Positions 7,013 to 62,946 of a stretch of 63,539 nucleotides of DNA are shown piece after piece. The stretch is from Haloferax sulfurifontis ATCC BAA-897 (GTDB taxonomy: Archaea > Halobacteriota > Halobacteria > Halobacteriales > Haloferacaceae). How positions within the stretch are numbered: the first letter of the stretch is position 1; each line of letters begins with the position of its first letter. Location of the stretch: the NCBI RefSeq assembly GCF_000337835.1, contig NZ_AOLM01000006.1, forward strand, positions 1 to 63,539, written 5' to 3'. The notes below the pieces were generated by a model. It was not told the DNA's origin. It ran no database searches and saw nothing but the letters and a program-made list of their open reading frames with translations. The translations under genes and the position numbers were made by a program.

Positions 7013-7259
7013 ATTTATACTTCGAGATAGGCTCCGATATAACTTTTAAATTACTCTTGGTATTCGTTTGGATTCGATAGGTAATCCAGTAATCAAACGA
7101 GAACTGAATAACTGAAATCACCCTTAGCAGGGAGAAGAGGCCACAGACCAAGTGATGAACGATAAGAAGGATATTCGAGATTATTTTTGGGAATCGTTTA
7201 GAAATTCGGTGAATATTTATCTCTGCGGAATGTGGGGGACAAATATGACCTCGTTGTGT

Positions 7260-7294
7260 ACTCGCGTTTCTTCGATGAGACACGAAACGCGAGT
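7260..7294 (+). promoter_or_regulatory. 11-bp perfect inverted repeat
   Basis: ACTCGCGTTTC and GAAACGCGAGT flank a 13-nt loop, about 70 nt before the zinc-ribbon gene that heads the transport series. It could be an operator for the divergent Lrp-RCK regulator or a 5' UTR hairpin. The remaining part of the 353-bp gap between 7013 and 7365 shows AT-rich promoter-like sequence but no convincing gene. Confidence 0.45.
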
Positions 7295-7365
7295 GGGGAA
7301 CTTAGGAATAGATTCACTCTGTAAACCAGATGAGTCCCATGTCGCTGTAAGTGGGTGTTGAGAGT

Positions 7366-7821
7366 ATGGGTGACGCAGATAATCGCGGAGTACCCCCTAA
7401 TAACCTCTCTGAAGCACTTGTTCAGCAACTCAATTCGCTGGGGCTCCCTGAATTAAAATCCGTACTTTCGTACGTGGAGCACCGTATCGAAGCGCTTCGA
7501 ACCCCGATCGAAGAGGAAATTGAGACGACAGCTGCTGGAGAGGTCCTCAAAATAGAGAACCACGGTGCATACGCGCTCGTGCGAAAACACCCTCCCAAAT
7601 CGGACGGTTCCGGTGTGAGTACGGATCGTGTATCACTCTATCACGTCCGCCGAGAGCATCGGATGGACGGGACACAATCCTTGCATTGGGCATATCTTGG
7701 AGACGTTCATAATGCCGAGCAGCTTCGGTGTGGATCCTGTGGAGGGATCCTCGACAAGGAAGCAGCTGTCTGCCCTCATTGTGGTACTGAGAATCCGAAC
7801 AATGTCGAGACGGAAGAATAA
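7366..7821 (+). CDS. Zinc-ribbon protein heading the K+/amino-acid transport cluster
   Basis: A 151-aa protein. Residues about 10-50 are helical ('LSEALVQQLNSLGLPELKSV'). The middle, about 60-115, is beta-rich and includes 'SLYHVRREHRMDGTQSLHWA'. The C-terminus is a zinc ribbon with CGSCG and CPHCG pairs. The ATG at 7366 was preferred to a GTG 15 nt upstream. The stop precedes the UspA gene by 2 nt, so the two are co-transcribed. Related proteins occur beside transport genes in haloarchaea. The function is unknown; a regulatory or adaptor role in the cluster is inferred from position. Confidence 0.75.
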   Translation: MGDADNRGVPPNNLSEALVQQLNSLGLPELKSVLSYVEHRIEALRTPIEEEIETTAAGEVLKIENHGAYALVRKHPPKSDGSGVSTDRVSLYHVRREHRMDGTQSLHWAYLGDVHNAEQLRCGSCGGILDKEAAVCPHCGTENPNNVETEE

Positions 7822-7823
7822 TC

Positions 7824-8243
7824 ATGTCAAAATCAATTACAAAACATCTCGTTGTCCCGGTTGCAAACGAAGAGGACGCACGTGAAACTGCACGAGTACT
7901 TGATAGCTATGAATATGGACAGGTAACTGTCGTTCACGTCATCGAGAAGGGAGGGGGAGTACCAGACAAGTTACCCCTCGAACAAGCAGAACTGCGGGCT
8001 TCGGACGTATTTGGGGCGTTTCGTGGATTCATTCCGGAGGCCGACACGGAAACTGCATACAGCAGAGATGTCGTTGCTGCGATCATCGACGTCGCAGCCG
8101 ATGTGGATGCGAGTGCTATCGCATTTCACCCGCGGGGAGGGAGCCGTCTCGTTCAGTTCTTATCGGGTGATACAGCGCTCAAGCTAATCACAGATGCAGA
8201 CCGTCCGGTCATTTCGCTCCCAGAACAGACTGAAAATAAATGA
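7824..8243 (+). CDS. Universal stress protein (UspA) family
   Basis: A 139-aa single-domain Usp fold: 'HLVVPVANEEDARETA', 'VTVVHVIEKGG' and the C-terminal 'ADVDASAIAFHPRGGSRL...RPVISLP'. Usp proteins are cytoplasmic alpha/beta nucleotide-binding proteins that often modulate transporters. The canonical ATP-binding G2xG9xG(S/T) signature is only partly kept here, so ATP binding is uncertain. It sits 2 nt after the zinc-ribbon gene and 61 nt before an APC permease that itself carries two Usp domains, which points to regulation of that permease. Confidence 0.85.
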   Translation: MSKSITKHLVVPVANEEDARETARVLDSYEYGQVTVVHVIEKGGGVPDKLPLEQAELRASDVFGAFRGFIPEADTETAYSRDVVAAIIDVAADVDASAIAFHPRGGSRLVQFLSGDTALKLITDADRPVISLPEQTENK

Positions 8244-20380: not shown

Positions 20381-20414
20381 GCGACCGAGTAGTCTGGTGG
20401 TGCGCTTGGTGTTG

Positions 20415-20445
20415 TTTTTGCGCCGCCCGAAGGGGCGGAGGCGCA
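20415..20445 (+). repeat. T-tract plus GC hairpin, copy 2
   Basis: T5 tract, then arms TGCGCC/GGCGCA with an inner GCCC/GGGC stem. It lies 34 nt after the previous stop codon and only 7 nt before the 28-codon leader frame. It may terminate the upstream unit, fold in the leader RNA of the downstream one, or both. Confidence 0.55.
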
Positions 20446-20452
20446 GTAACAG

Positions 20453-20539
20453 ATGCCGATTCCAACATTCGCAGTTGAGTTGTCCCGCGTTCACCACCAG
20501 TCGCCCGCGATGCTCGCCAGGGAGGTGAGTATTCGATGA
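20453..20539 (+). CDS. Possible 28-aa leader peptide
   Basis: An ATG at 20453 opens a 28-codon frame ('MPIPTFAVELSRVHHQSPAM...') whose TGA overlaps the ATG of the zinc-ribbon gene (ATGA). It begins 7 nt after hairpin copy 2. The exact stop-start overlap suggests translational coupling. The peptide itself has no recognisable motif, so it could also be chance. Confidence 0.35.
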   Translation: MPIPTFAVELSRVHHQSPAMLAREVSIR

Positions 20540-20931
20540 GTCTCGAACGCGTGTGCCGTCACGACGAGGCACTGTTCGAGTTTCTGTGGTGTCCGGTGTG
20601 TGGCACGGAAGCGTTCACGCACATTCCCTTCGAGGGGGTGTTCTGCACAGAGTGCAATACCAGTGTGACGTGTCGTGAGTCGCCTGAATCGCGTGGTTAC
20701 GATGAGGCGGTCATCATCACATTCGACGCAACAACGACGTGGAATCTCCACATCGACGAGAAACTCCGTCGGCCGCTTCCCGACGACGAAGCACAAGTTA
20801 AGATTCTCGGTGCGCCCGGTGACTACCACGTCGATTGGTGGGCACCAACCACGACCGAAGACTGGACGCCAGTCGAGCGCAACGAGTTCGCTGACGAATC
20901 CGAACCCGAGGCGGTGTCGCACCTCGCATAG
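20536..20931 (+). CDS. Zinc-ribbon protein of mobile-element type
   Basis: A 131-aa acidic protein. Residues 18-52 hold a zinc ribbon with CPVCG and CTECN pairs; the second half is beta-rich ('IITFDATTTWNLHIDEKLRR') and ends in an acidic tail. I know this layout from hypothetical proteins on haloarchaeal plasmids but not its function. The start is set by the ATGA overlap with the small upstream frame. Hairpin copy 3 follows 41 nt after its stop. Confidence 0.65.
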   Translation: MSLERVCRHDEALFEFLWCPVCGTEAFTHIPFEGVFCTECNTSVTCRESPESRGYDEAVIITFDATTTWNLHIDEKLRRPLPDDEAQVKILGAPGDYHVDWWAPTTTEDWTPVERNEFADESEPEAVSHLA

Positions 20932-20972
20932 CGTCGATCGAGAGACTCCTCGGTACCCGCGCGACATCGAGA

Positions 20973-20999
20973 TTTTTTGTGCCCGTGATGGGTGCGGGC
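20973..20999 (+). repeat. T-tract plus GC hairpin, copy 3
   Basis: T6 tract, then arms GCCCG/CGGGC with a 9-nt loop. It ends 30 nt before the start of the next gene at 21030. Confidence 0.5.
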
Positions 21000-21029
21000 T
21001 GAAGACACAGTCCGTGTGACGTGATTTCC

Positions 21030-21368
21030 ATGAGTCACCAACAGACAGAGTCAGACGTCTCGATCGACGAGATTCCAGTTGATCTCGAACTCGTGCATCG
21101 TTCGGAGTTCACCCGAGCCGACGTTCCCGATGAAATTGAGTCGATAACGTGGGCTCTCTTGAGCGAGCAACCACCGATGAACCCACTGGTCGTTCTCAAA
21201 GCGGCTCGCTGGTGGTACATCCACGGCGCAGGTGAGTCTGACCCCGTGTACTGCTGGGCGATTGAGTGGGTTCGACACCTCACGACCGGCGAAGCGACTG
21301 CCAGCGGCCTGTTCGGCGAGTGCCGACAGTACCTTCGTAGTCTCGAACGCGAGGACACCGACCAGTAA
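21030..21368 (+). CDS. 112-aa hypothetical protein
   Basis: An acidic soluble protein ('SDVSIDEIPVDLELVHRSEF' near the N-terminus; helical C-terminal half with 'RWWYIHGAGESDPVYCWAIE'). The ATG at 21030 was preferred to a GTG 9 nt upstream. No domain recognised. Placed directly before the ArdC-like gene and separated from it by hairpin copy 4. Probably an element-specific protein of unknown role. Confidence 0.65.
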   Translation: MSHQQTESDVSIDEIPVDLELVHRSEFTRADVPDEIESITWALLSEQPPMNPLVVLKAARWWYIHGAGESDPVYCWAIEWVRHLTTGEATASGLFGECRQYLRSLEREDTDQ

Positions 21369-21381
21369 GTCGTCCCGCCTG

Positions 21382-21410
21382 TTTTTGTGCGCCCCAGAGG
21401 GGTGCGGCGC
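21382..21410 (+). repeat. T-tract plus GC hairpin, copy 4
   Basis: T5 tract, then GCGCCCC-AGA-GGGGTGCGGCGC, 13 nt after the preceding stop and 32 nt before the ArdC-like start codon. Confidence 0.5.
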
Positions 21411-21441
21411 GTCCTGGAGGGACGCGTCAGAACTGAAAGCA

Positions 21442-22371
21442 ATGGCAACAACGAGTTCCCCGTCGGTGTCGTTCGACGAGACCGACACCCGACACGACGA
21501 GATGCATCGTACGATCGAACAGTGGCTTGCGGACCTCGCTGCCGACGTCGACAACGCTCGGGCGAGCGAGCAGTTCCAGGCGTGGCTGGACATCCAGAGC
21601 CGGTTCCACGACTACTCTCACCGCAACACCCTCCTCATCAACCTCCAATGCCCTGAGGCGACGAAGGTCGCCGGCTACCGGACGTGGCAAGAAGAGTTCG
21701 ACCGACACGTCGATGAAGGTGAGTCAGCGATCTGGATTTGGGCGCCGATCATCACGACGCAGTGTCCCGAGTGTGGGAACGCACCGAGCTATCACGAAAA
21801 CAGCGAGTGTGAGTACGACGAGACGCCTCCCGAAGAGTGGTCAGAGGGGCTCGTGGGGTTCAAGCCCGCTCCAGTCTTCGATATTTCGCAGACAGAGGGC
21901 GAGCCACTCCCGGAGCTGGACACGGCGGCGACCGGTGAGCCTGACACGCTCGTCGATGATCTCACCAATATTGCGTCGGACCTCGGTGTAACCGTCCGCA
22001 TCGTCGATCCCGACGGGTGGCGACATGGGGAGGCAAAGGGCGTCTGCCAGTCGCGGAGTGTTCAGGACCTCACCCCACTCGTGGAAGTGAAGGACCGGTC
22101 GAACCGCGCGGACCTCGCGTCGACGATCATCCACGAGTACGCCCACGCGATTTTGCACTTCGACATAACCGACGCAACTGAGCGGGCGAAACGTGAGGTC
22201 GAAGCGGAGGCCGTCGCGTACGTCGTCGGTCGCTATCTCGGCTTGGATACGAGTGGGTCGGCGTTCTACCTCGCGGCGTGGCAGGACGACGAGACGGACG
22301 TGCTGCAAGAGCGACTGGGTCGGATTAGTGGGACGGCCGGAGAGATTCTGTCGATACTCGACGCGGTCTAA
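21442..22371 (+). CDS. ArdC-like antirestriction protein with zinc metalloprotease domain
   Basis: A 309-aa protein. Residues about 20-105 match the ArdC N-terminal ssDNA-binding region ('FHDYSHRNTLLINLQ', 'VAGYRTWQEEF', 'ESAIWIWAPI'). A Cys cluster follows (C108, C111, C123), probably binding zinc. Residues about 170-300 are an M78/ImmA-like metalloprotease fold with HEYAH at 231-235 and a third-ligand glutamate in 'VEAEAVAYVVG'. ArdC proteins protect incoming plasmid DNA from host restriction, so this marks a mobile element. The ATG at 21442 sits right at the domain start; the longer frame covers the neighbouring gene and hairpin. DNA protection here is inferred. Confidence 0.85.
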   Translation: MATTSSPSVSFDETDTRHDEMHRTIEQWLADLAADVDNARASEQFQAWLDIQSRFHDYSHRNTLLINLQCPEATKVAGYRTWQEEFDRHVDEGESAIWIWAPIITTQCPECGNAPSYHENSECEYDETPPEEWSEGLVGFKPAPVFDISQTEGEPLPELDTAATGEPDTLVDDLTNIASDLGVTVRIVDPDGWRHGEAKGVCQSRSVQDLTPLVEVKDRSNRADLASTIIHEYAHAILHFDITDATERAKREVEAEAVAYVVGRYLGLDTSGSAFYLAAWQDDETDVLQERLGRISGTAGEILSILDAV

Positions 22372-22392
22372 TCCGTCTGCCGTCCGGCGTGG

Positions 22393-22416
22393 TTTTTGAT
22401 GCCCCCGAGGGGTGCG
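22393..22416 (+). repeat. T-tract plus GC hairpin, copy 5
   Basis: T5 tract, then CCCC/GGGG arms in GCCCCCGAGGGGTGC, 21 nt after the ArdC-like stop and 21 nt before the SWIM-protein start. Confidence 0.5.
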
Positions 22417-22436
22417 CGCAGTGCGCGTTAGCTATC

Positions 22437-22844
22437 ATGACACCTGTCCTCACAAAATTCGATCCACCTGCACGCGTCCTCAAGCGGGCGCAGTACGAGG
22501 CGTTCGCGTTCGAACTACTTGACGGCGATATCCGCGTGCGAAACGAGAGCTATGCCGACCCGGCTGCGCACGAGTACCGGGTTCGAATTCGGGATGGCGT
22601 GCCTGATTCGTGTTCGTGTCCCGCTGACGCAAGTAGTGACAGTCCGTGTAAACATCGGATTGCAGTCGTGATTCGACCACGAGTACTCGACCTCGCCGTG
22701 CAGATGCGTGTCGTCGCAGATGGTGGGTCAACATCGAGCGGCGATGACGAGACAACAGACCTGCCCTGCGAGTGTGAACAGTTATCTGAAGCTCTTCCCT
22801 GTTGGAACTGCGTTGATGCTGGGCGGCGCAACCTATCTGAATAG
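22437..22844 (+). CDS. SWIM zinc-finger protein
   Basis: A 135-aa protein. A beta-rich N-terminal half includes 'YRVRIRDGVPDSCSCPADAS', followed by 'SPCKHRIAVVI': together these give the SWIM signature CxC...CxH. The C-terminus adds a second Cys cluster (CECEQ...CWNC). SWIM domains bind DNA or protein partners; stand-alone SWIM proteins are frequent on haloarchaeal plasmids. The ATG at 22437 is preferred, since upstream codons run through hairpin copy 5. It lies 66 nt after the ArdC-like gene. Confidence 0.85.
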   Translation: MTPVLTKFDPPARVLKRAQYEAFAFELLDGDIRVRNESYADPAAHEYRVRIRDGVPDSCSCPADASSDSPCKHRIAVVIRPRVLDLAVQMRVVADGGSTSSGDDETTDLPCECEQLSEALPCWNCVDAGRRNLSE

Positions 22845-22877
22845 TCGTGTGAGGTTTCGTACGTCACCAGGTACTCG

Positions 22878-23063
22878 TCAGTCTTCGGACTGCTGGGCTG
22901 CGGCGTACTCACCAGCAAACTGCTCGCGCATCTCTCGACGGAGCAGTTCACTCATGACTTCGTAGACGACCGGCTGGGGATACTTGTCGAGGAGGTGTTG
23001 GACGTCAGCTGCACATCTGCTTTTTTCAGTCGCAAAATTCGCCGTCCATGGTGAGCTACTCAT
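22878..23063 (-). CDS. 61-aa hypothetical protein
   Basis: A small soluble protein, mostly helical ('CAADVQHLLDKYPQPVVYEV', then a charged helix 'SELLRREMREQFAGEYAAAQ'). It is convergent with the SWIM gene. No family recognised. The helical, charged C-terminus and acidic end fit a haloarchaeal small protein, but coding status rests only on composition. Confidence 0.5.
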   Translation of the reverse strand: MSSSPWTANFATEKSRCAADVQHLLDKYPQPVVYEVMSELLRREMREQFAGEYAAAQQSED

Positions 23064-23387
23064 ACCAGATAGTAATTTGTTGTCTCAGTTAACTGTTCGC
23101 CTGGTGAGAAATTCCTACTAACGCAAGCCCAAACTGTGACTCACAGATATCCAGCAACACGAGTATCGAGTGTACGAAACTCGGTGGGCACGAGGCCCAC
23201 GAGGGAGTTATCAAGGGGTGGGCGCGGATGGCTTGGTACGCGATTTCGCGCCCGTTGCAGAACAGGGCACGTCTTGTGTGACACGACGAGCCTGCAACGG
23301 TAATCCACCTGCGAGCATGTTTGGTATTGTGGTTCAGTCATTTAATGACCGTCAACCGAAGCCAACCTGTTCGAGACGACAACGGCG
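23064..23387. other. 324-bp gap before the TFB-like gene
   Basis: Several frames stay open because of high GC, but none has a recognisable product or a consistent start. A GTGGGC..GCCCAC inverted repeat occurs around 23187-23202. No gene is called. Confidence 0.4.
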
Positions 23388-23414
23388 TTTTTTGGCCCCT
23401 GACGGGTGCGGGGC
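23388..23414 (+). repeat. T-tract plus GC hairpin, copy 6
   Basis: T6 tract, then GCCCC/GGGGC arms with a 10-nt loop, 29 nt before the start of the TFB-GIDE chimera. Confidence 0.5.
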
Positions 23415-23443
23415 GCGGCGTGATGCGTCTCGTGGTGTTCGAG

Positions 23444-24169
23444 ATGTCGACACGAGATGTCTACGAGCGACAGTTCGACGAATCGTGCGGCAAATCCTGT
23501 GGAAACGCCTCTTGTCCGGAGTGTGGCGGCCAAGTCATTACCGACGCTGGTGAACGGCGGTGCCAGTCGTGTGGACTCATCATCGACGGGCATGGCATCG
23601 ACCACGGTCCCGAGTGGCGGTCGTTCGAGCGCGAGGAGCGAAGACGAGTGGGCGCGCCGCGAACGCCGACGCGGCATGATCACGGCCTCGCGACCGAAAT
23701 CGGCCGACACGTCGACGCTAACGGGACCCCAATCCCAGGCGAGCGACGACAGCAGCTCTCCCGGCTCCGCACCCAGCACAGTCGGAGTCGGTACCAATCG
23801 AGTCGTGAACGTCGGCTCGCACATGGGTTGGACGAAGTCCGGCGACTCGCCGGCGTACTCGACCTCCCGGATGGCGTTGATATCGGCCCGTTGAGCACCG
23901 GCGAGCGTCGGCGCTATCTCGAGGGCACACTCGAACCAGGCGAGGACGTCTATCTCCTTGGAACCGCTAGGGAGACCGAGACGGGCTGGGACAATCGCGG
24001 ATACGTAATCGACGAGCCGACGTCCGACGGTGATTTCATCCTCTCGGACAAGTCGGAGGCCACGCTGATAGAGGAGGGACGGAGTAGTGGCCTCGTCTTT
24101 CTGGCCGCTGGCGCGCTCATGATCGTGATAGGGCTGGCTTCACTCCTCTCGCCATTTCTACCGATATGA
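23444..24169 (+). CDS. TFB N-terminus fused to GIDE-like membrane domain
   Basis: A 241-aa chimera. Residues 1-60 match the N-terminus of haloarchaeal TFB: 'MSTRDVYERQFDE', a zinc ribbon (CPECG...CQSCG) and 'IDHGPEWRSF'. Residues 60-143 continue as the TFB linker and first helix of the core ('HGLDEVRRLAGVLDLPDG'). Then both cyclin folds are missing. Residues about 155-241 instead resemble the end of haloarchaeal GIDE proteins: 'LEGTLEPGEDVYLLGTA', 'FILSDKSEATLIE' and a C-terminal membrane helix. TFB recruits RNA polymerase; this protein lacks TBP and BRE contacts but could reach the membrane. The ATG at 23444 matches TFB starts; another lies at 23423. A single continuous frame argues against a sequencing slip. 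Confidence 0.75.
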   Translation: MSTRDVYERQFDESCGKSCGNASCPECGGQVITDAGERRCQSCGLIIDGHGIDHGPEWRSFEREERRRVGAPRTPTRHDHGLATEIGRHVDANGTPIPGERRQQLSRLRTQHSRSRYQSSRERRLAHGLDEVRRLAGVLDLPDGVDIGPLSTGERRRYLEGTLEPGEDVYLLGTARETETGWDNRGYVIDEPTSDGDFILSDKSEATLIEEGRSSGLVFLAAGALMIVIGLASLLSPFLPI

Positions 24170-24295
24170 GAGTAGCTAGCACTACTATTACTATTATTCA
24201 ACTATGGAGCTAACTTGTTGAATTCGATACCGGCGTCGGGATCTGCGTTTAAGCGTGTCGAGGCTTTTTTCCCACACCCGCGGTGATTGAGAGTG

Positions 24296-25063
24296 ATGGC
24301 CCTCCAGCTCATCGACGCGATTACTGATGGAACCAGACGAGTTCTGACTCGAACCGGCGGCGTCCTATTGATACTCTTGCTCGCCCAGCAGATCCTGCTC
24401 GTCACGTCGATCAACACCTTGTTGGCCTCCGAAGCCCTGCCCGCGGCAGCCGACGTGATCGGACTGACCATACCTGTCTCTGGAACCGTTGCGGGTGCCA
24501 TACTGCTCGGGACGTTCCTCTTCAGTGGCGTCTACTTCGTGGTCCTCTCCCGCGCGTTCGCACGGCCGCTGTCGCGGCTCTCTTCGTTCCCGACAGAACT
24601 GTACACTCGACGGGTCGGTCGAGCCACGCTCTCGACGCTCGTCGGCGGTATCGTCGTGTTCATCGTCGTCATGATTGGATTCGCCTTTCTGTTCCTGCCA
24701 GGACTGTTCCTCGCGGCGTGCTTCCTGGTCTTCATCTTCGCGGTTGGCGTGGAAGATCGAGGCGTGATTAGCGCACTCAAGCGGAGTTGGAGCCTCTCGA
24801 AGGGAAATCGGCTCCGTCTAGTCGCAATCGTCCTCATCTCCGGGATCGTCGGCGCGTTCGTCGGTGCCGTTCCGGCACTCTTCCAGCTGGCAGGTGCCTC
24901 CGCACTCGGTGACGTCGTGTCCGTCGTTATCAACAGCGTTCTGTTCACGTTCGTCTACGGCATCACGGCGGCGGCGTACCTGCAGCTCGCTCGGGGAGAT
25001 GGTGGTTCCGGTGGTCCACGGTCGTCAGCGCCTACGAGCACCGGCCCTGATCCCGAGATATAG
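24296..25063 (+). CDS. DUF7847-type membrane protein, copy 1
   Basis: A 255-aa protein with about six membrane helices and a disordered, Gly/Ser/Pro-rich C-terminus. The family marker is 'VGVEDRGVISALKRSWSLSK' followed by GNRLRL, a cytoplasmic loop before the last two helices. Two paralogues lie at 26330-27181 and 31861-32616. Such proteins resemble the DUF975/DUF6159 group of membrane proteins of unknown function. The ATG at 24296 was chosen over a TTG 9 nt upstream. It has its own T-rich leader. Function unknown. Confidence 0.75.
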   Translation: MALQLIDAITDGTRRVLTRTGGVLLILLLAQQILLVTSINTLLASEALPAAADVIGLTIPVSGTVAGAILLGTFLFSGVYFVVLSRAFARPLSRLSSFPTELYTRRVGRATLSTLVGGIVVFIVVMIGFAFLFLPGLFLAACFLVFIFAVGVEDRGVISALKRSWSLSKGNRLRLVAIVLISGIVGAFVGAVPALFQLAGASALGDVVSVVINSVLFTFVYGITAAAYLQLARGDGGSGGPRSSAPTSTGPDPEI

Positions 25064-25203
25064 CTCGGTTTCGACGAAGGATTACTCCTGCATGTTGAGT
25101 AGCCCAGCCATCGTCGAGGATGGCTTTCTGGGTCTCGCTCATGCGGGCAGGCACTCCTATAGAGAAGGAGAGAGTCGACAGGACGGCCACGTCTAAGGGT
25201 CGA

Positions 25204-25626
25204 TTAGAGGATTGGACGGAGGCTAAATCGTCCGATAGTCCGATCGAGTCCGAGTCTGAGTACTGCCTCCGCGAGTATGATCATCAGAACGAATCCAAGG
25301 AGGATGGGCCAGACGGTGAGGTACGACGAGAGTGGATGGAGATGCGTACCGTAGAGCCACTGATATATCGTCTCCCCCAGCACCCAGAGCGTCGCGAGTG
25401 GTGCTGAGATGAGCGAGAGACGGCCGAACAGATAGAGAGGAACGGCTGCTGTGAGAAACATTCCGACCAGAGCGTACCCGAAGCCGACGACGACCATGAG
25501 GCTACTTCCAGAGGAGAAATACACGCCGGCCGAGAAAAGCCACGAGATGACGATGATCGCGTATAGGCCACCGCCGAGAGCAGCGGCGGTGCGTGCGTCA
25601 CGGAGACTGATGGAGGGAAGAAGCAT
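25204..25626 (-). CDS. Four-helix membrane protein, single-repeat relative of the 59-kb protein
   Basis: A 140-aa protein with four helices (about 15-35, 43-62, 66-88, 104-125). The pattern 'AVPLYLFGRLSLISAPLATL' followed by a final helix and basic end closely resembles the C-terminal half of the 281-aa protein at 59446-60291 ('AVPLYLLVRHRLFAPATLLT'). That protein has two such halves. No function known. Same orientation as the next membrane-protein gene at 25746. Confidence 0.65.
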   Translation of the reverse strand: MLLPSISLRDARTAAALGGGLYAIIVISWLFSAGVYFSSGSSLMVVVGFGYALVGMFLTAAVPLYLFGRLSLISAPLATLWVLGETIYQWLYGTHLHPLSSYLTVWPILLGFVLMIILAEAVLRLGLDRTIGRFSLRPIL

Positions 25627-25745
25627 ACAGACGATATCCGCTTCCGATGTTAGTCAATTGCTCGGTGCCTCTCCAGTTCTGCGTGATTCGTAGAACGACC
25701 TCATTGATAGTTTCCGTGAGGCCAGTAGAGACGAAGAGCCCCCAC

Positions 25746-26096
25746 TCATACCGAGGTCTCTTCAAATAGCCTGCGGTCGACTTCCCATCCAACCCCGAGA
25801 CTACCGATGACAGCGAGGGCACCGAACCATGGGAGGAGCGCGTGGTCCATGAGTGACAACAGAATCCCGGCTGCGAACAATCCCCACTGCAGCGACTTGC
25901 GCTGTTCACCACCCTTATAGTGAGAGACAACCGACGGGAGGAGCAATAGCCCGGCAAGTACCCCACCGACGAAACTCGTTCGAATGGAGACTGTGCCGAT
26001 TGTCAGTGTCGAGAAGCGGGTGACTATGATTGCTCCCCCGCTGACGAGTCCGAGAAACATCGTGAGACGGACGACCCATGAATTGAGTGAAGGCAT
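25746..26096 (-). CDS. Hypothetical membrane protein
   Basis: A 116-aa protein with four predicted helices; the pattern is 'RLTMFLGLVSGGAIIVTRF', 'SFVGGVLAGLLLLPSVVSHY', then two more. No family recognised. It lies between the single-repeat membrane protein and DUF7847-type copy 2, all on the minus strand but with separate gaps of 120-230 nt. Confidence 0.6.
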   Translation of the reverse strand: MPSLNSWVVRLTMFLGLVSGGAIIVTRFSTLTIGTVSIRTSFVGGVLAGLLLLPSVVSHYKGGEQRKSLQWGLFAAGILLSLMDHALLPWFGALAVIGSLGVGWEVDRRLFEETSV

Positions 26097-26329
26097 CGCG
26101 TCTCAGTAACACTCCGTGCGTGAATAAACACTGTGTCGAACCAAACTTCCCTTTAGAGGCAATCGAATCGCAATTCACTCCTGAACCCGCATGTGGGTTG
26201 AGGTGGGGGTATCCTCTCTGCACTCAGCGCCGTGAAATTTCTCAATCTGATAACTTACTATGTCGTCGCTCTCTACCCCATTAAACGAATTCGGGCCACT
26301 CTAATGTGGCCAGACTTGCTATTCGCTAA

Positions 26330-38483: not shown

Positions 38484-39308
38484 TCATACAATCTCCAATC
38501 CGTTTGCCAGCGAGAGGCTGGCGATAACCGCAAACCCACCCGAGGCCAGTCCGTACTTTAGGAGCTGCCGGCGAAGACTTCTACTGAATTCAGCAAACCC
38601 TTGATCCGAAAGTAATAGCGGGGTCTCGTCGCTTCCCTGGAGCACGGGGGTGCCCTGATCAACCGTGACTTCCCCGCAGACCGCCAGCATCTCACCGTCA
38701 AGGATAGCTCTCGCCTCGAAATACTCATCGTCTCGGCTCTCGGCGGCGGCATCTGCACCGAAGAGACCCTCTACATCGGCAACGGAGTTGGCGATCCAGT
38801 GGTCCTCCAGATGGATGTATTGCGATCTCCAGCTACGCTCCGACAACCGGGTCGATACCGTCCACTCCGGAGACACTGTTGTGATATCGGCGCTGTCGTG
38901 GGTCTCAGCCAACCAGTCTGTGTTGATACGAATCTCGCGCTGACCATCGTCGACCGAAAACGTTCCGGCCTCAATCCCGGATGCATACGTAATCATATTC
39001 ATATCTGCTCCGGGCTCTTCGGCATCAAGATTGTAGTTATAGGACTCGGATTCCTTGAGCCGCCACACGTACGCACCAATCGACTTCGCCTCATTGATCG
39101 GAAAAGAGTTGCTTAGTGGCGGTGAGTTCCTGACGTTTACCGTCCCCTCTATGGCGATGGTCTCGCCATCGACGAGCGTTGATGGACTCTCGTCTTCGAT
39201 TGCCGACACAGATCGGTAGAGTATCCCGGCGGTGATGGCTCGGTAGCCCAACCACAAAGAGGTAGCAAGTAGAAGTATCCCGACAATAGTACTCACCGCT
39301 TCAACCAT
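38484..39308 (-). CDS. GIDE-domain membrane protein (E3 ligase-like fold)
   Basis: A 274-aa protein: N-terminal membrane helix (about 5-25), a GIDE domain at about 40-230 ('GETIAIEGTVNVRNSPPLSN', 'GAYVWRLKESESYNYN', 'HLEDHWIANSVADVEGLFGA'), then 'TPLLLSDQGFAEF' and a C-terminal membrane helix. GIDE is the intermembrane-space domain of eukaryotic MUL1/MAPL; haloarchaeal members lack a RING, as here, so no ubiquitin-ligase role is implied. Its C-terminal part is the region found fused to TFB at 23444-24169. The ATG at 39308 follows a TATA-like TTTATATA by about 25-30 nt. Confidence 0.8.
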   Translation of the reverse strand: MVEAVSTIVGILLLATSLWLGYRAITAGILYRSVSAIEDESPSTLVDGETIAIEGTVNVRNSPPLSNSFPINEAKSIGAYVWRLKESESYNYNLDAEEPGADMNMITYASGIEAGTFSVDDGQREIRINTDWLAETHDSADITTVSPEWTVSTRLSERSWRSQYIHLEDHWIANSVADVEGLFGADAAAESRDDEYFEARAILDGEMLAVCGEVTVDQGTPVLQGSDETPLLLSDQGFAEFSRSLRRQLLKYGLASGGFAVIASLSLANGLEIV

Positions 39309-39523
39309 ATTCGTCTGCACCGCTTGGATGTACTTTATATATTGGGGGAAGGAATCCCTTAGGGAGCCCGTTCGGCCAGTTCACATCAGCCGTCCTTGCC
39401 ACCACCAGCGTCACCGCCGTAGCTCAACGTGCGAGCAGAGTCTCACGGCTGATTTGCCTCTGAGATCGTGAAATTAAATCACCGTGGCAACGCTTCTATG
39501 ACACCCTGGAGTTGTACTGTTAT

Positions 39524-43101: not shown

Positions 43102-43242
43102 ACGAGTGGTACGACAGCGTCACAGATAACTTGGCGTCCTGGACGGGTCATTCGATTGTGGGGCGGGGCGGTCAGGAGTGTGAAGACGACCCGGCGTAGA
43201 TACGGTCACAACACCACTCTACCGCTCTGGAGATGTCCCTGT

Positions 43243-43416
43243 CTACCGGCTCGCCAACGCGGCGCCGATAGCGATACCGATGCCCATCCCGATGGCGATA
43301 CCCGATGCAATATTGTCCATCGCAACTCCGAGTGCAACGCCAATACCAGCCCCAATCGCAATACCCACACCCATCATCTTCCCATCCACGCTGTCGTTCG
43401 CTTCGTCTGAGCCCAT
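43243..43416 (-). CDS. 57-aa glycine-zipper membrane peptide
   Basis: ATG at 43416, TAG at 43243. A polar leader of about 13 residues ('MGSDEANDSVDGK') is followed by two glycine-zipper helices: 'MMGVGIAIGAGIGVALGVAM' and 'IASGIAIGMGIGIAIGAALA'. GxxxG packing suggests oligomerisation in the membrane. Similar Gly-rich small proteins occur in haloarchaea and actinobacteria without known function. It precedes the SdpI-like gene by 141 nt on the same strand. A leader-plus-hydrophobic-core layout resembles class II bacteriocins, but no processing site is evident and the resemblance may be superficial. Confidence 0.7.
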   Translation of the reverse strand: MGSDEANDSVDGKMMGVGIAIGAGIGVALGVAMDNIASGIAIGMGIGIAIGAALASR

Positions 43417-43536
43417 TAGCACCGATGACGGAGAGTACTACGAAATACTACTCGCTACGCAGCACAGAAATGTGGTGCTCCGCCGGGCAGCGTTCTCTCC
43501 CCGTGATTTATCTCGTGAAAACGAGTAGCCAGCACC

Positions 43537-44364
43537 ATGCCCTCCAAGTACAGACGTAGTCTCGACATCACGACCGAGAGCCTCGACGTGTTCAGACAGC
43601 ATACGAGCCTTGCGGTACTCCCCGCCCTAAGCCTGCTCGCTGTGGGCAGTGCGTTCGCCGTCCTCACCGCCGTCGCGTTCCAGTTTGGTATTGTTGACTC
43701 GCTGTTCACCAACGACCTCTACAAGTACGGAGCGCTGTTCTGCGCGTTTGCGATCTCCTCGAGCGTGGCGACGTTCTTCAACGCGGCCGTCGTCCACTGT
43801 GCGTCACGGGTCTTCGACGGCGAGCAGACGTCTGTCCGAGACGGGCTCACTGCTGCGTGGCGTGTCCGGCGGCAGATTGCGCTCTGGGCGGTCGTCGCGG
43901 CGACCCTCGGCACTGTGCTCTACATCCTCGACGAGAAGTTCGGAGCAATCGGCAGCGTTGCACGACTCGTGTTCGATCTCGCGTGGGCGCTCCTGACGTA
44001 CTTCATCGTCCCCGTCATCGTTCTGGACCACGAGACGGGGATTCGGCGACAGCTCCGCCGAAGCGGCTCCCTCTTCACGGATACGTGGGGTGAGAGCGTC
44101 TCCGCAACGCTCGGCGTCAGTCTCATCTTCCTCATCGCAGCCCTCCCCGGCCTCGTGCTCTTGGCCGTCGGCTACTTCGTGCTTCACGGAGCCATCGCAG
44201 CAGGCGCCCTCGTCGTCGGTGGGCTCATCGTCGTCGCCGCAATTGTTGGTTCTCAGACCGTTACGGCTATCGTCAGGACGGCGCTGTATCGCTACGCGAC
44301 GACGGGTGAGCGCGTCGGGCCGTTCGAAGCGCGAGAGCCGGCTTCCGTCTTCCCCGAGAAGTGA
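43537..44364 (+). CDS. DUF6159 family membrane protein
   Basis: A 275-aa six-helix protein. The DUF6159 pattern is visible: 'LAVLPALSLLAVGSAFAVLT', 'SSSVATFFNAAVVHCASRVF' and 'FIVPVIVLDHETGIRRQLRR' followed by SGSLFTDTWGE. That last loop resembles the 'EDRG...SW' loop of the DUF7847-type proteins, so the families may be distant relatives. Its stop overlaps the start region of the MBL-like gene. Function unknown. Confidence 0.85.
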   Translation: MPSKYRRSLDITTESLDVFRQHTSLAVLPALSLLAVGSAFAVLTAVAFQFGIVDSLFTNDLYKYGALFCAFAISSSVATFFNAAVVHCASRVFDGEQTSVRDGLTAAWRVRRQIALWAVVAATLGTVLYILDEKFGAIGSVARLVFDLAWALLTYFIVPVIVLDHETGIRRQLRRSGSLFTDTWGESVSATLGVSLIFLIAALPGLVLLAVGYFVLHGAIAAGALVVGGLIVVAAIVGSQTVTAIVRTALYRYATTGERVGPFEAREPASVFPEK

Positions 44365-44366
44365 CG

Positions 44367-45080
44367 ATGCCGATGTACGATCGGGGAGCGCCGGAAGATC
44401 CCGTGATCATCGATCGGTGGTCCGGCGGCCTCGGATGGCTCGCATACCCCGATGAAACCGGGATGCGAGCAAGTCACGCGTTCGTCGGAGACAACGGCGG
44501 TGTCTGGGTCGTCGACCCGCTGGACGCCCCCGGAATCGACGACGAACTCGAGACGCTCGGTGAGGTGACTGGCGTCGTCGTTCTCTCGAACTACCACGCC
44601 CGCGATGCCGATACCTTCGCTGCCCGCCACGACGTTCCGGTCTTCCTCCCCCAGTGGCTCTCTCGTGTAGCCGAGCAAATCGAGAATCCCTCCGAGTACG
44701 TGGTCGAGAATATCGGAACCTCTGGATTCGAGATCCGTCGTTGTGCGCCGTTTCCTGGGTGGGACGAGGCTATCGCGTACCGCGAAGCTGACGGAACGCT
44801 GTACGTCCCGGACGTGCTGGGAACAGCACCGTTGTTCACTGTCGGAGAGGAGCGACTGGGGACGTACCTCCTGTGTCGTCTCTTTCCACCCCGGGGCGCG
44901 TTCGAAGATGTCTCACCCGAACGAATTCTCGTCGGGCATGGAACCGGACTGTTCGAGAACGCACCGACTGCCCTCACAGACGCACTCGCTGGAGCGCGAC
45001 GGCGGTTTCCCGCAGCACTCCTGCAGAACGGCTGGGGACAAATTCGGGCGCTAACAGCGGCACTTGGGAGTGGTCGATGA
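44367..45080 (+). CDS. MBL-fold-like protein lacking the HxHxDH motif
   Basis: A 237-aa soluble protein with the beta-lactamase-like strand pattern: 'VWVVDPLDAPGIDDEL', 'GVVVLSNYHARDADTFAARH', 'VPVFLPQWLSR', 'TLYVPDVLGTAPLFTVGEER' and 'ILVGHGTGLFE'. The metal-binding HxHxDH is replaced by YHARDAD, so at best one metal site is kept. It is close to haloarchaeal proteins annotated as MBL-fold hydrolases. The start could be the GTG at 44361 or the ATG at 44367 or 44373. Coupled to the DUF6159 gene. Catalysis is doubtful. Confidence 0.7.
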   Translation: MPMYDRGAPEDPVIIDRWSGGLGWLAYPDETGMRASHAFVGDNGGVWVVDPLDAPGIDDELETLGEVTGVVVLSNYHARDADTFAARHDVPVFLPQWLSRVAEQIENPSEYVVENIGTSGFEIRRCAPFPGWDEAIAYREADGTLYVPDVLGTAPLFTVGEERLGTYLLCRLFPPRGAFEDVSPERILVGHGTGLFENAPTALTDALAGARRRFPAALLQNGWGQIRALTAALGSGR

Positions 45081-45204
45081 TTGGATTCTCAGGGATGCAC
45101 AGCGAAAATCCTGCCTCGTACCGATTACCCTGCTCAATTGACCACGGAACGATAGAGATGCCAGAGCGGGTGGTTTCTGACGACTACTCCCGGTTTCGTT
45201 CGTA

Positions 45205-45651
45205 ATGCCCTCCATTCTCTCGGTTGCGATCGGGAGCTTCGTCGGATTGTGCGTCGGGATGGGCGTTCTCTGCTCGCCGATGCTGGTGAGTTCGAACTGT
45301 CGACGACTCTTCGACTCAGGGCCGTTCGACTACATCGTCTTCAACTACGTCGGAGGAATGGGTGTCTTCACCTTCATCCACGTCGCCCTCATCTTCGCTG
45401 GTGCTCTCGTGAACTACGTCGTACGGGTGCAGATCAGTTGGTGGTTTCTCGGAGTAACACTCGTTCTCGCTGGCGGCGGGTGGATAATTGGGAGTGTTGT
45501 AGTTCCGCGATACGGCTGGTGGCAACCGACCGAATCTGGCTTGGACGGTCGAATCGTCCTCGCTGTAACGGCAATTTGGTACGTCGTCTGCACGCTGATC
45601 CTTGCCGCTCTCTTCGCGTTCGCGTGGTTTCTGGCGTATTATCCCGGCTGA
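45205..45651 (+). CDS. Four-helix membrane protein
   Basis: A 148-aa protein with helices at about 4-25, 48-70, 78-98 and 120-143. The loop 'VVVPRYGWWQPTESGLDGRI' separates the last two. No family recognised. It stands between the MBL-like gene and the hairpin-rich leader of ABC cassette 3. ATG at 45205 follows directly on an AT-poor upstream region of 124 nt. Confidence 0.6.
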   Translation: MPSILSVAIGSFVGLCVGMGVLCSPMLVSSNCRRLFDSGPFDYIVFNYVGGMGVFTFIHVALIFAGALVNYVVRVQISWWFLGVTLVLAGGGWIIGSVVVPRYGWWQPTESGLDGRIVLAVTAIWYVVCTLILAALFAFAWFLAYYPG

Positions 45652-45721
45652 GGAGCGTCGTGGAGACGATATACCCCGCCGACAACACAAGATACAGCCA
45701 GCTACAATCCAATTGGGAAGT

Positions 45722-45832
45722 ATGGAACGTTCAGATTCGGACTTCCAGTCGGACGAAGATGAGAATGACGATGCGCAGATTAACAAACCACTCGACCGCC
45801 TAATCAATTTTCTTGCGACATATCTCCCGTGA
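45722..45832 (+). CDS. Possible 36-aa acidic peptide
   Basis: An ATG-started frame encoding an acidic stretch ('SDFQSDEDENDDAQINKPLD') and a short amphipathic end. Composition suits a haloarchaeal protein, but the frame is short and has no recognisable family. It ends just before the CGGGG/CCCCG hairpin at 45840. Confidence 0.25.
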   Translation: MERSDSDFQSDEDENDDAQINKPLDRLINFLATYLP

Positions 45833-45839
45833 ACCACCT

Positions 45840-45944
45840 CGGGGATTGACCCCGAAGCACTCGTCTTGCTTATCCGTAGAGCTGTCTCTTACGGATAGTA
45901 CAGGTCGAGTGCCTCGTCGTTTCCCTCGATGAGGCACACTCGAC
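45840..45944 (+). promoter_or_regulatory. Three consecutive hairpins before ABC cassette 3
   Basis: CGGGG/CCCCG (45840-45854), TATCCGTA/TACGGATA (45871-45897) and a long imperfect stem GTCGAGTG..CGAC (45904-45944). A TATA-like AGATATATC follows at about 45947-45955, about 25 nt before the ATG at 45979. The first could end upstream transcription; the two nearer the promoter are candidate operator sites. Confidence 0.45.
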
Positions 45945-45978
45945 AAGATATATCACTCATGTAGAATTAGACAGATTA

Positions 45979-46869
45979 ATGCGTTGGTCCCCGCTTGCTC
46001 GCAAAGAAGCCCGAACAGTCGCGACCTCCAAGGGCGTCTGGCTGCTCGCCGTCCTCCTCGTCCTCTGGGGCTATCGGCCCAGCTACGTCGGCTGGGATGG
46101 CCTCGGGTCGAATATAACCGCTGGATACGTCCAGGTCGCGGGAACAGTGCTCCTCCCGCTCGGCGTTCTCCTCCTGAGTTACCAGTCGATCGTCGGTGAA
46201 CGAACCTCCGGGAGCGTCAAGTTCGTTCTCGGACTCCCCTTGACGAGGACTGATGTGCTCCTCGGAAAAGTCGTCGGACGGACGGCCGGTATCGCAGGGC
46301 CGGTCTCCGTCGCCTTTCTCGTCATAGCTGGAATCGGACTGGTCGACCACGGACTCTTCGATCCGTTCCTGTTCCTCGGTACTGTCATCGTGACACTCCT
46401 GTACATCGGTGTACTCGTCTCGCTAGCTGTCTCAATCTCCGCCGTCGTCAGCAGAGCGGTGACGGCCGCCGGAGCCGTCTTCGCGGGAGTCTTCCTCCCG
46501 CTCGTCCTGTTCTGGACACGAATCAGTACGACTGTGTTCACGCAGATGACCGGGATTCCCGTCAATCCCTTCGAACCGCCGGCTTCGGGGCCGCTGTTCT
46601 TCCTACTTCGGCTCTCCCCGGCGGGTGCGTATCACGTCGTCTCGAACTGGCTACTCGGCGTCGGCAACTCCGCGAACATGTACAGCCACGTCCTCACGAA
46701 ACTCCAGCCTCAGACGTCGACGAACGCGTACGTCGTCGAGGCGACGTTCCCTCCCGGTACGGCCCCAGTCTACCTCCACGAGGCCGTCGGTCTCCTCGTA
46801 CTCCTCGCCTGGCTGGTCGTCCCGCTGGGACTCGCTCGCCACCTCTTTACGCGAGATGATGCGGTGTGA
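45979..46869 (+). CDS. ABC-2 type permease (cassette 3)
   Basis: A 296-aa six-helix permease. The ABC-2 coupling motif is 'LSYQSIVGERTSGSVKFVLG' with 'TRTDVLLGKVVGRT'. A large extracellular insert (about 195-260) precedes the last helix and carries 'YSHVLTKLQPQTSTNAY'. Here the permease gene comes first and the ATPase second, the reverse of cassette 1. A TATA box about 25 nt upstream suggests a leaderless start. The stop overlaps the GTG of the ATPase gene. Confidence 0.9.
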   Translation: MRWSPLARKEARTVATSKGVWLLAVLLVLWGYRPSYVGWDGLGSNITAGYVQVAGTVLLPLGVLLLSYQSIVGERTSGSVKFVLGLPLTRTDVLLGKVVGRTAGIAGPVSVAFLVIAGIGLVDHGLFDPFLFLGTVIVTLLYIGVLVSLAVSISAVVSRAVTAAGAVFAGVFLPLVLFWTRISTTVFTQMTGIPVNPFEPPASGPLFFLLRLSPAGAYHVVSNWLLGVGNSANMYSHVLTKLQPQTSTNAYVVEATFPPGTAPVYLHEAVGLLVLLAWLVVPLGLARHLFTRDDAV

Positions 46870-62418: not shown

Positions 62419-62946
62419 ATGTTGGCAGCGAGAGCGGACGGCGAACGCCCTGACGGGCGTCGCCGTCCAGTTCCACGCGACCAGGTGGTCTTGGATGCAG
62501 AGGACCCGCATCTGTCGTTCGGTGACGGAGAGCGGAAGAACGGTCCTGGTGAAGTGACGTTGTTGTATGGTGTTGGCGTCGTAGCTAGTCGGATTGATGC
62601 ACTCTCTGACCGTGGGAGCTGGAACAGGTATTTGTTCCCCTCTCGGTCGTCGTCTACGGGACACGTGTCTGTGAGTACGGTTCGTCGTCGATTCAAGCAA
62701 CTGGCTGACCGTGCTGGAGTGGTTGTTGATGGGGAGACTCCAACTCCGAAGATGGGCCGGCGGTTCTGGTACTCGGCGTATCAGGGGGCTGTTGCTGAGG
62801 TTCTAGAGGGACTGGAGGGAGTTGCTGAAGACCAGGGGAGTTCGTCGACGGAGGTTGTGCTTCGGAACTATCTGTCGAGAGAGCAAGAGCGGAAGGCCCG
62901 GCAAAGGAAGATGGCGGGAAGATTATCTGAAGCGTTTCATCAATAA
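62419..62946 (+). pseudogene. Tyrosine recombinase (integrase) lacking its N-terminal part
   Basis: 175 codons that match the C-terminal half of haloarchaeal phage-type integrases: 'YLFPSRSSSTGHVSVSTV', 'PTPKMGRRFWYSAYQGAV' and 'AEDQGSSSTEVVLRNYLS' with the presumed catalytic Tyr in RNYLS. The N-terminal SAM-like domain and the first catalytic Arg box are missing; upstream DNA does not encode them in any frame I checked. The ATG at 62419 is probably fortuitous. It is the scar of an integrated element, directly beside the CRISPR array. Confidence 0.75.

Follow-up and report, generated by a model that had tools for sequence, protein, structure and literature searches.

A TFB zinc ribbon joined in frame to the C-terminal part of a GIDE-family membrane protein in a single Haloferax strain: a probable product of recent illegitimate recombination

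The reading frame at positions 23444-24169 (+) of the window, by which we mean the whole stretch of 63,539 nucleotides that was analysed (Haloferax sulfurifontis ATCC BAA-897, contig NZ_AOLM01000006.1, positions 1 to 63,539), combines the beginning of a TFB gene with the end of a GIDE gene. Judging from the DNA and from intact relatives of both genes, it is very likely the product of a recent illegitimate recombination, in which an accessory, plasmid-type TFB gene was joined in frame to the 3′ part of a GIDE gene. The chimera is probably genuine, apparently recent, confined to a single strain, and without a selected function. It is composed as follows.

23444-24169 (+): chimeric open reading frame of 241 aa, TFB N-terminus and GIDE C-terminus (reading frame, Pfam)
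23444-23871 (+): TFB-derived part, with the N-terminal segment, zinc ribbon, reader/linker and first helix of cyclin repeat 1 (92-94% amino acid identity to intact Haloferax TFBs)
23854-23871 (+): junction zone common to both parents, LDLPD codons in the same frame (individual parent pairs have 9-14 exact bases in common)
23854-24186 (+): GIDE-derived part, corresponding to the final 40% of a GIDE protein of 257 aa plus ∼20 nt beyond the stop codon (90-91% nucleotide identity to Natrinema hispanicum)
24089-24151 (+): predicted C-terminal membrane helix, residues ∼216-236 (hydropathy; helix 203-238 in a low-confidence model)

The frame runs for 241 codons without interruption and ends in TGA. 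It begins with the residues M-S/A-TRDVYERQFDE, as intact Haloferax TFBs do, and the start codon is therefore credible. Pfam matches the zinc ribbon family Zn_Ribbon_TF (PF08271) at residues 24-61 (E 2.6e-11, above the Pfam cut-off); the zinc-ribbon cysteines C24, C27, C41, and C44 (CxxC...CxxC) are kept, and the ribbon can also be aligned to solved TFIIB ribbons. The second Pfam match, to GIDE (PF12483), spans residues 157-228 (E 9.3e-6, 25.6 bits against a cut-off of 23.6) and profile positions 86-155 of 160. No match to the TFIIB cyclin repeat (PF00382) was obtained in the chimera, whereas an intact relative (L074) has two. Kyte-Doolittle scanning detected a strong hydrophobic segment at residues ∼216-236. 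The AlphaFold2 model, calculated from a shallow 14-row alignment, has a mean pLDDT of 44.8, and the sole structural point we draw from it, at low confidence, is that its C-terminal helix (203-238) appears to agree with the hydropathy peak. The frame, Pfam, and hydropathy analyses corroborate the architecture proposed in the sequence-only reading, namely one uninterrupted frame with a TFB ribbon, a GIDE-type part, and a membrane helix, with both TFB cyclin folds absent.

When genome contigs from 84,980 species were scanned, residues 1-145 of the chimera were found to be 92-94% identical to six Haloferax TFB loci, found in H. marisrubri, H. denitrificans (two), H. gibbonsii (two), and Haloferax sp. 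Q22, all of them full length (308-312 aa). The two copies in H. denitrificans ATCC 35960, which whole-genome comparison places in the same species cluster, are both intact. In the intact TFB L074, which contains the ribbon and two TFIIB repeats, the repeats begin at residue 122, and therefore only the first helix of repeat 1 is left in the chimera. Compared with haloarchaeal TFB (PF08271 and two PF00382 repeats; NF001658), and specifically with its accessory plasmid-type paralogues, the chimera is alike in the N-terminal segment, ribbon, reader/linker, and first helix of repeat 1, but keeps only ∼143 of 310 residues and lacks both cyclin repeats, which provide TBP and BRE binding. The genome that carries the chimera contains about ten other TFB matches. 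The orthologous TFB of Haloferax alexandrinus pBNX82-4 (L110, about 7050-8000) is unannotated and carries a frameshift and an in-frame stop; since it was broken independently, the accessory TFB is dispensable.

In the same scan, residues 139-241 proved 93% identical to the GIDE protein of Natrinema hispanicum and 86% identical to that encoded by a Halomicrococcus gelatinilyticus plasmid; plasmids of Natribaculum longum and N. breve also carry the GIDE part, at 86% identity. In Natrinema and Halomicrococcus the GIDE frame is open over 257 aa, and the GIDE sequence of the chimera is absent from each of 14 other Haloferax genomes. The chimera shares with haloarchaeal GIDE-family membrane proteins the last 103 of 257 residues, including the Pfam-matched stretch and the C-terminal membrane helix, at 86-93% identity, which together with the above-threshold PF12483 match upholds the GIDE similarity that had been proposed for its C-terminal part. 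In contrast to haloarchaeal GIDE, which has membrane helices at both ends, the chimera is without the first membrane helix and the N-terminal 60%, and this missing part holds the majority of the positions that haloarchaeal GIDE proteins conserve. An intact haloarchaeal GIDE (L080) matches the same part of PF12483 (positions 86-152) and has no other significant Pfam domain. The family name 'E3 ubiquitin ligase' derives from eukaryotic members, and literature searches for the function of haloarchaeal GIDE returned nothing relevant.

DNA homology to the Haloferax TFB loci ends at 23871 (for single loci, between 23865 and 23875) and that to the GIDE loci begins at 23854, so that the two overlap in CTCGACCTCCCGGAT, in which LDLPD is encoded by both genes in the same frame. 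Among 525 in-frame TFB/GIDE registers, the junction register is the longest exact match for L077 and L080 (12 nt) and one of the two longest for L074 and L080 (11 nt), and L077 has a 14-nt exact match at the junction with L081 or L112. This pattern is what a homology-guided illegitimate join would predict. Intact relatives of both parents exist, and homology switches sharply from one to the other within a short shared sequence, as expected of a microhomology chimera. We found neither the exact donors nor an unfused allele of the same strain, the nearest relatives being 87-92% identical at the nucleotide level, and no empty site. Wild-type Haloferax volcanii is documented to join ends at microhomologies of 3-5 bp (PMC2700283), and in strains whose CRISPR self-targeting is enhanced, deletions arise through microhomology end joining (PMC7521656); we infer that this process may have been the route to the present junction.

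The flanks of the junction differ in their affinities, as seen from the following features.

20408-23871 (+): accessory Haloferax cluster on the upstream side, comprising ArdC/IrrE-like, SWIM zinc-finger and TFB genes and collinear with loci of other Haloferax (DNA comparison, Pfam)
23388-23410 (+): copy of a T-run/GC hairpin element, 56 nt 5′ of the chimera start codon (repeat search)
24246-26293 (+): block on the downstream side, with 84.6% identity to a Salinirubellus plasmid, L109 (DNA comparison)

Up to 3.5 kb of upstream sequence is collinear between the window and the Haloferax TFB loci; the Pfam matches of the ArdC/IrrE-like gene are weak to borderline. Downstream of the junction, homology to Natrinema reaches 24186, ∼20 nt beyond the stop codon, and for the block at 24246-26293 the other Haloferax genomes give only short, chance-level matches. 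Because the upstream side is shared with Haloferax and the GIDE part and downstream side are of foreign type, the fusion point is the border between Haloferax accessory DNA and DNA like that of other haloarchaeal genera. The intact Haloferax TFB loci are followed by other genes, not by GIDE.

Several further observations concern this region. The block at 24246-26293 and another at 43209-46531 are 85% and 92% identical, respectively, to neighbouring parts of the Salinirubellus plasmid, and we regard the two as a likely sign of imported mosaic DNA. Synteny of positions 62470-62913 with H. denitrificans was considered as a return to the same replicon and rejected, as this sequence is dispersed. 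In H. denitrificans and Haloferax sp. Q22, the segment at 23078-23336, which here lies upstream of the TFB part, recurs (about 76%) on the downstream side of the intact TFB. The T-run followed by GCCCC-NGAN-GGGTGCG occurs in four copies, at 20974, 21384, 22394, and 23388 (+), against 0.03 expected, each ∼43-56 nt 5′ of the start codon in four consecutive genes; in other Haloferax it likewise precedes these genes, and it has no Rfam match. It may be a leader or promoter element of the accessory gene cluster.

Whether the same fusion occurs in other genomes was a question raised by the sequence-only reading, and the answer is that it was found in this one only. Contigs from the 84,980 species contained no fused relative, and no other TFB-GIDE fusion was detected in 170 genomes of the family or 392 of the order, in the latter of which the best whole-protein matches cover residues 1-145 or 138-241, never both. 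The same one-sided coverage was seen among 72,556 plasmid records, which held no fusion; phages and viral contigs gave no match to it, and literature searches for a described TFB-GIDE fusion returned nothing relevant. A conserved fusion family was rejected on this basis, with no fused relative in any collection searched. An old, domain-shuffled family that is simply rare in databases is extremely improbable: the databases are incomplete, which leaves it some room although nothing positive speaks for it, and against it each part is >90% identical to an unfused relative and a fused relative was not found. A unique junction in a draft genome of 29 contigs could also mean that two unlinked loci were wrongly joined during assembly. 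However, misjoined intact loci would leave their other halves elsewhere, and these halves are absent from an assembly rated 99.5% complete. Nothing similar to the missing N-terminal 154 residues of GIDE was detected in this genome, and for the missing C-terminal 166 residues of TFB it has only ordinary paralogues (full-length identity ≤45%) together with a single piece of 70 residues at 70%. The exact stretch shared by the known parents (up to 14 nt) is also shorter than usual assembly k-mers, and the junction lies ∼24 kb inside a 63.5-kb contig. Of the two signs of an artefact or dead chimera named in the sequence-only reading, a fusion seen nowhere else is present; the other, an assembly error at the junction, finds no support here and is highly improbable. 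On sequence grounds, the join is probably real. The 70-residue piece (C28:209819-210028) is a TFB core fragment in a short frame, 70% identical to the accessory TFB, and represents another TFB remnant.

The open frame, the intact zinc cysteines, the low dN/dS of both parts against intact relatives (0.04-0.07 for TFB, 0.09-0.13 for GIDE), and the lack of visible decay are signs against a recent accident. However, a very young fusion would show the same low dN/dS, and with a single copy age and constraint are therefore inseparable; dN/dS was discarded as a functional test, as the low values in both parts reflect the history of the parents and are uninformative on the time since fusion. We favour a chance chimera because both parents are intact elsewhere, the junction lies in microhomology, the fusion occurs in one genome only, and its 3′ part is like that of other genera. 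Of the options previously offered for this frame (a membrane tether, a competitor of TFBs, or a deletion chimera), it is therefore the last that the evidence favours, though not in the form of a simple deletion fusing two neighbouring genes on a single Haloferax replicon: TFB and GIDE were nowhere seen side by side, and GIDE is missing from the 14 other Haloferax genomes. Tethering and competition gained no positive support.

A functional tethered ribbon would be made from the TFB promoter, insert through its C-terminal helix, and sequester RNA polymerase through its ribbon, its role being that of a negative regulator or of a cofactor like TFB3. The open frame, intact zinc cysteines, and conserved upstream region are consistent with this role, but its restriction to a single genome, the loss of the 60% of GIDE that contains its first membrane helix along with the majority of conserved positions, the poor confidence of the model (mean pLDDT 44.8, shallow alignment), and the other TFB matches in the genome make it very unlikely. 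Sulfolobus TFB3 is likewise a TFB paralogue in truncated form, with the zinc ribbon retained and the DNA-binding core missing (PMC2246294, PMC5817253). However, TFB3 is without a B-finger or membrane helix, is found in several Sulfolobus species, and is UV-induced, whereas the chimera is a single-strain fusion; of the marks of a TFB3-type, ribbon-only protein it shows the retained ribbon and lost core, and not the orthologues in several species. There is a slim prospect that we have caught a newborn gene just after an in-frame microhomology join, with a membrane-anchored TFB ribbon, expressed from the old TFB promoter, sequestering RNA polymerase at the membrane. The simplest reading, and a probable one, is a silent or decaying relic, a subset of the recombination explanation, in which the fusion is transcribed and its product is unstable, has no effect, and will be lost. 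In its favour, both domains are cut and in H. alexandrinus the orthologous TFB has already become a pseudogene; against it, no stops or frameshifts have appeared so far. A weak dominant-negative effect is possible in principle.

The window was also thought to contain an intact GIDE gene at 38484-39308. The protein encoded at 38484-39320 (-) is a membrane protein of 278 aa that has hydrophobic segments close to its two ends; a Pfam search admitting E values up to 1 assigned it to no family, and its profile match to four haloarchaeal GIDE proteins is collinear but weak (13.7% probability, E 0.002). At best, it may be a very divergent GIDE-like protein, and the name 'intact GIDE gene' is unwarranted.

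In the recombination that we propose, a Haloferax accessory plasmid-type TFB gene would have been broken after about codon 140 and joined in frame, within the short stretch that encodes LDLPD in both genes, to the 3′ 40% of a GIDE gene. The GIDE donor would be of the kind found in other haloarchaeal genera, on imported haloarchaeal DNA. Translation would yield a C-terminally membrane-anchored product with the TFB ribbon and reader/linker, lacking the TBP- or DNA-binding core. Such a product would be unable to act as a TFB, and would at most compete for RNA polymerase, or else be unfolded and degraded. As a clean example that can be dated, the chimera illustrates how a general transcription factor carried on a plasmid is broken and becomes fused in frame with an unrelated gene through a short shared sequence, in a genus, Haloferax, known for microhomology end joining. 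If the product is made and binds RNA polymerase at the membrane, it would represent a new TFB-paralogue architecture and a natural dominant-negative.
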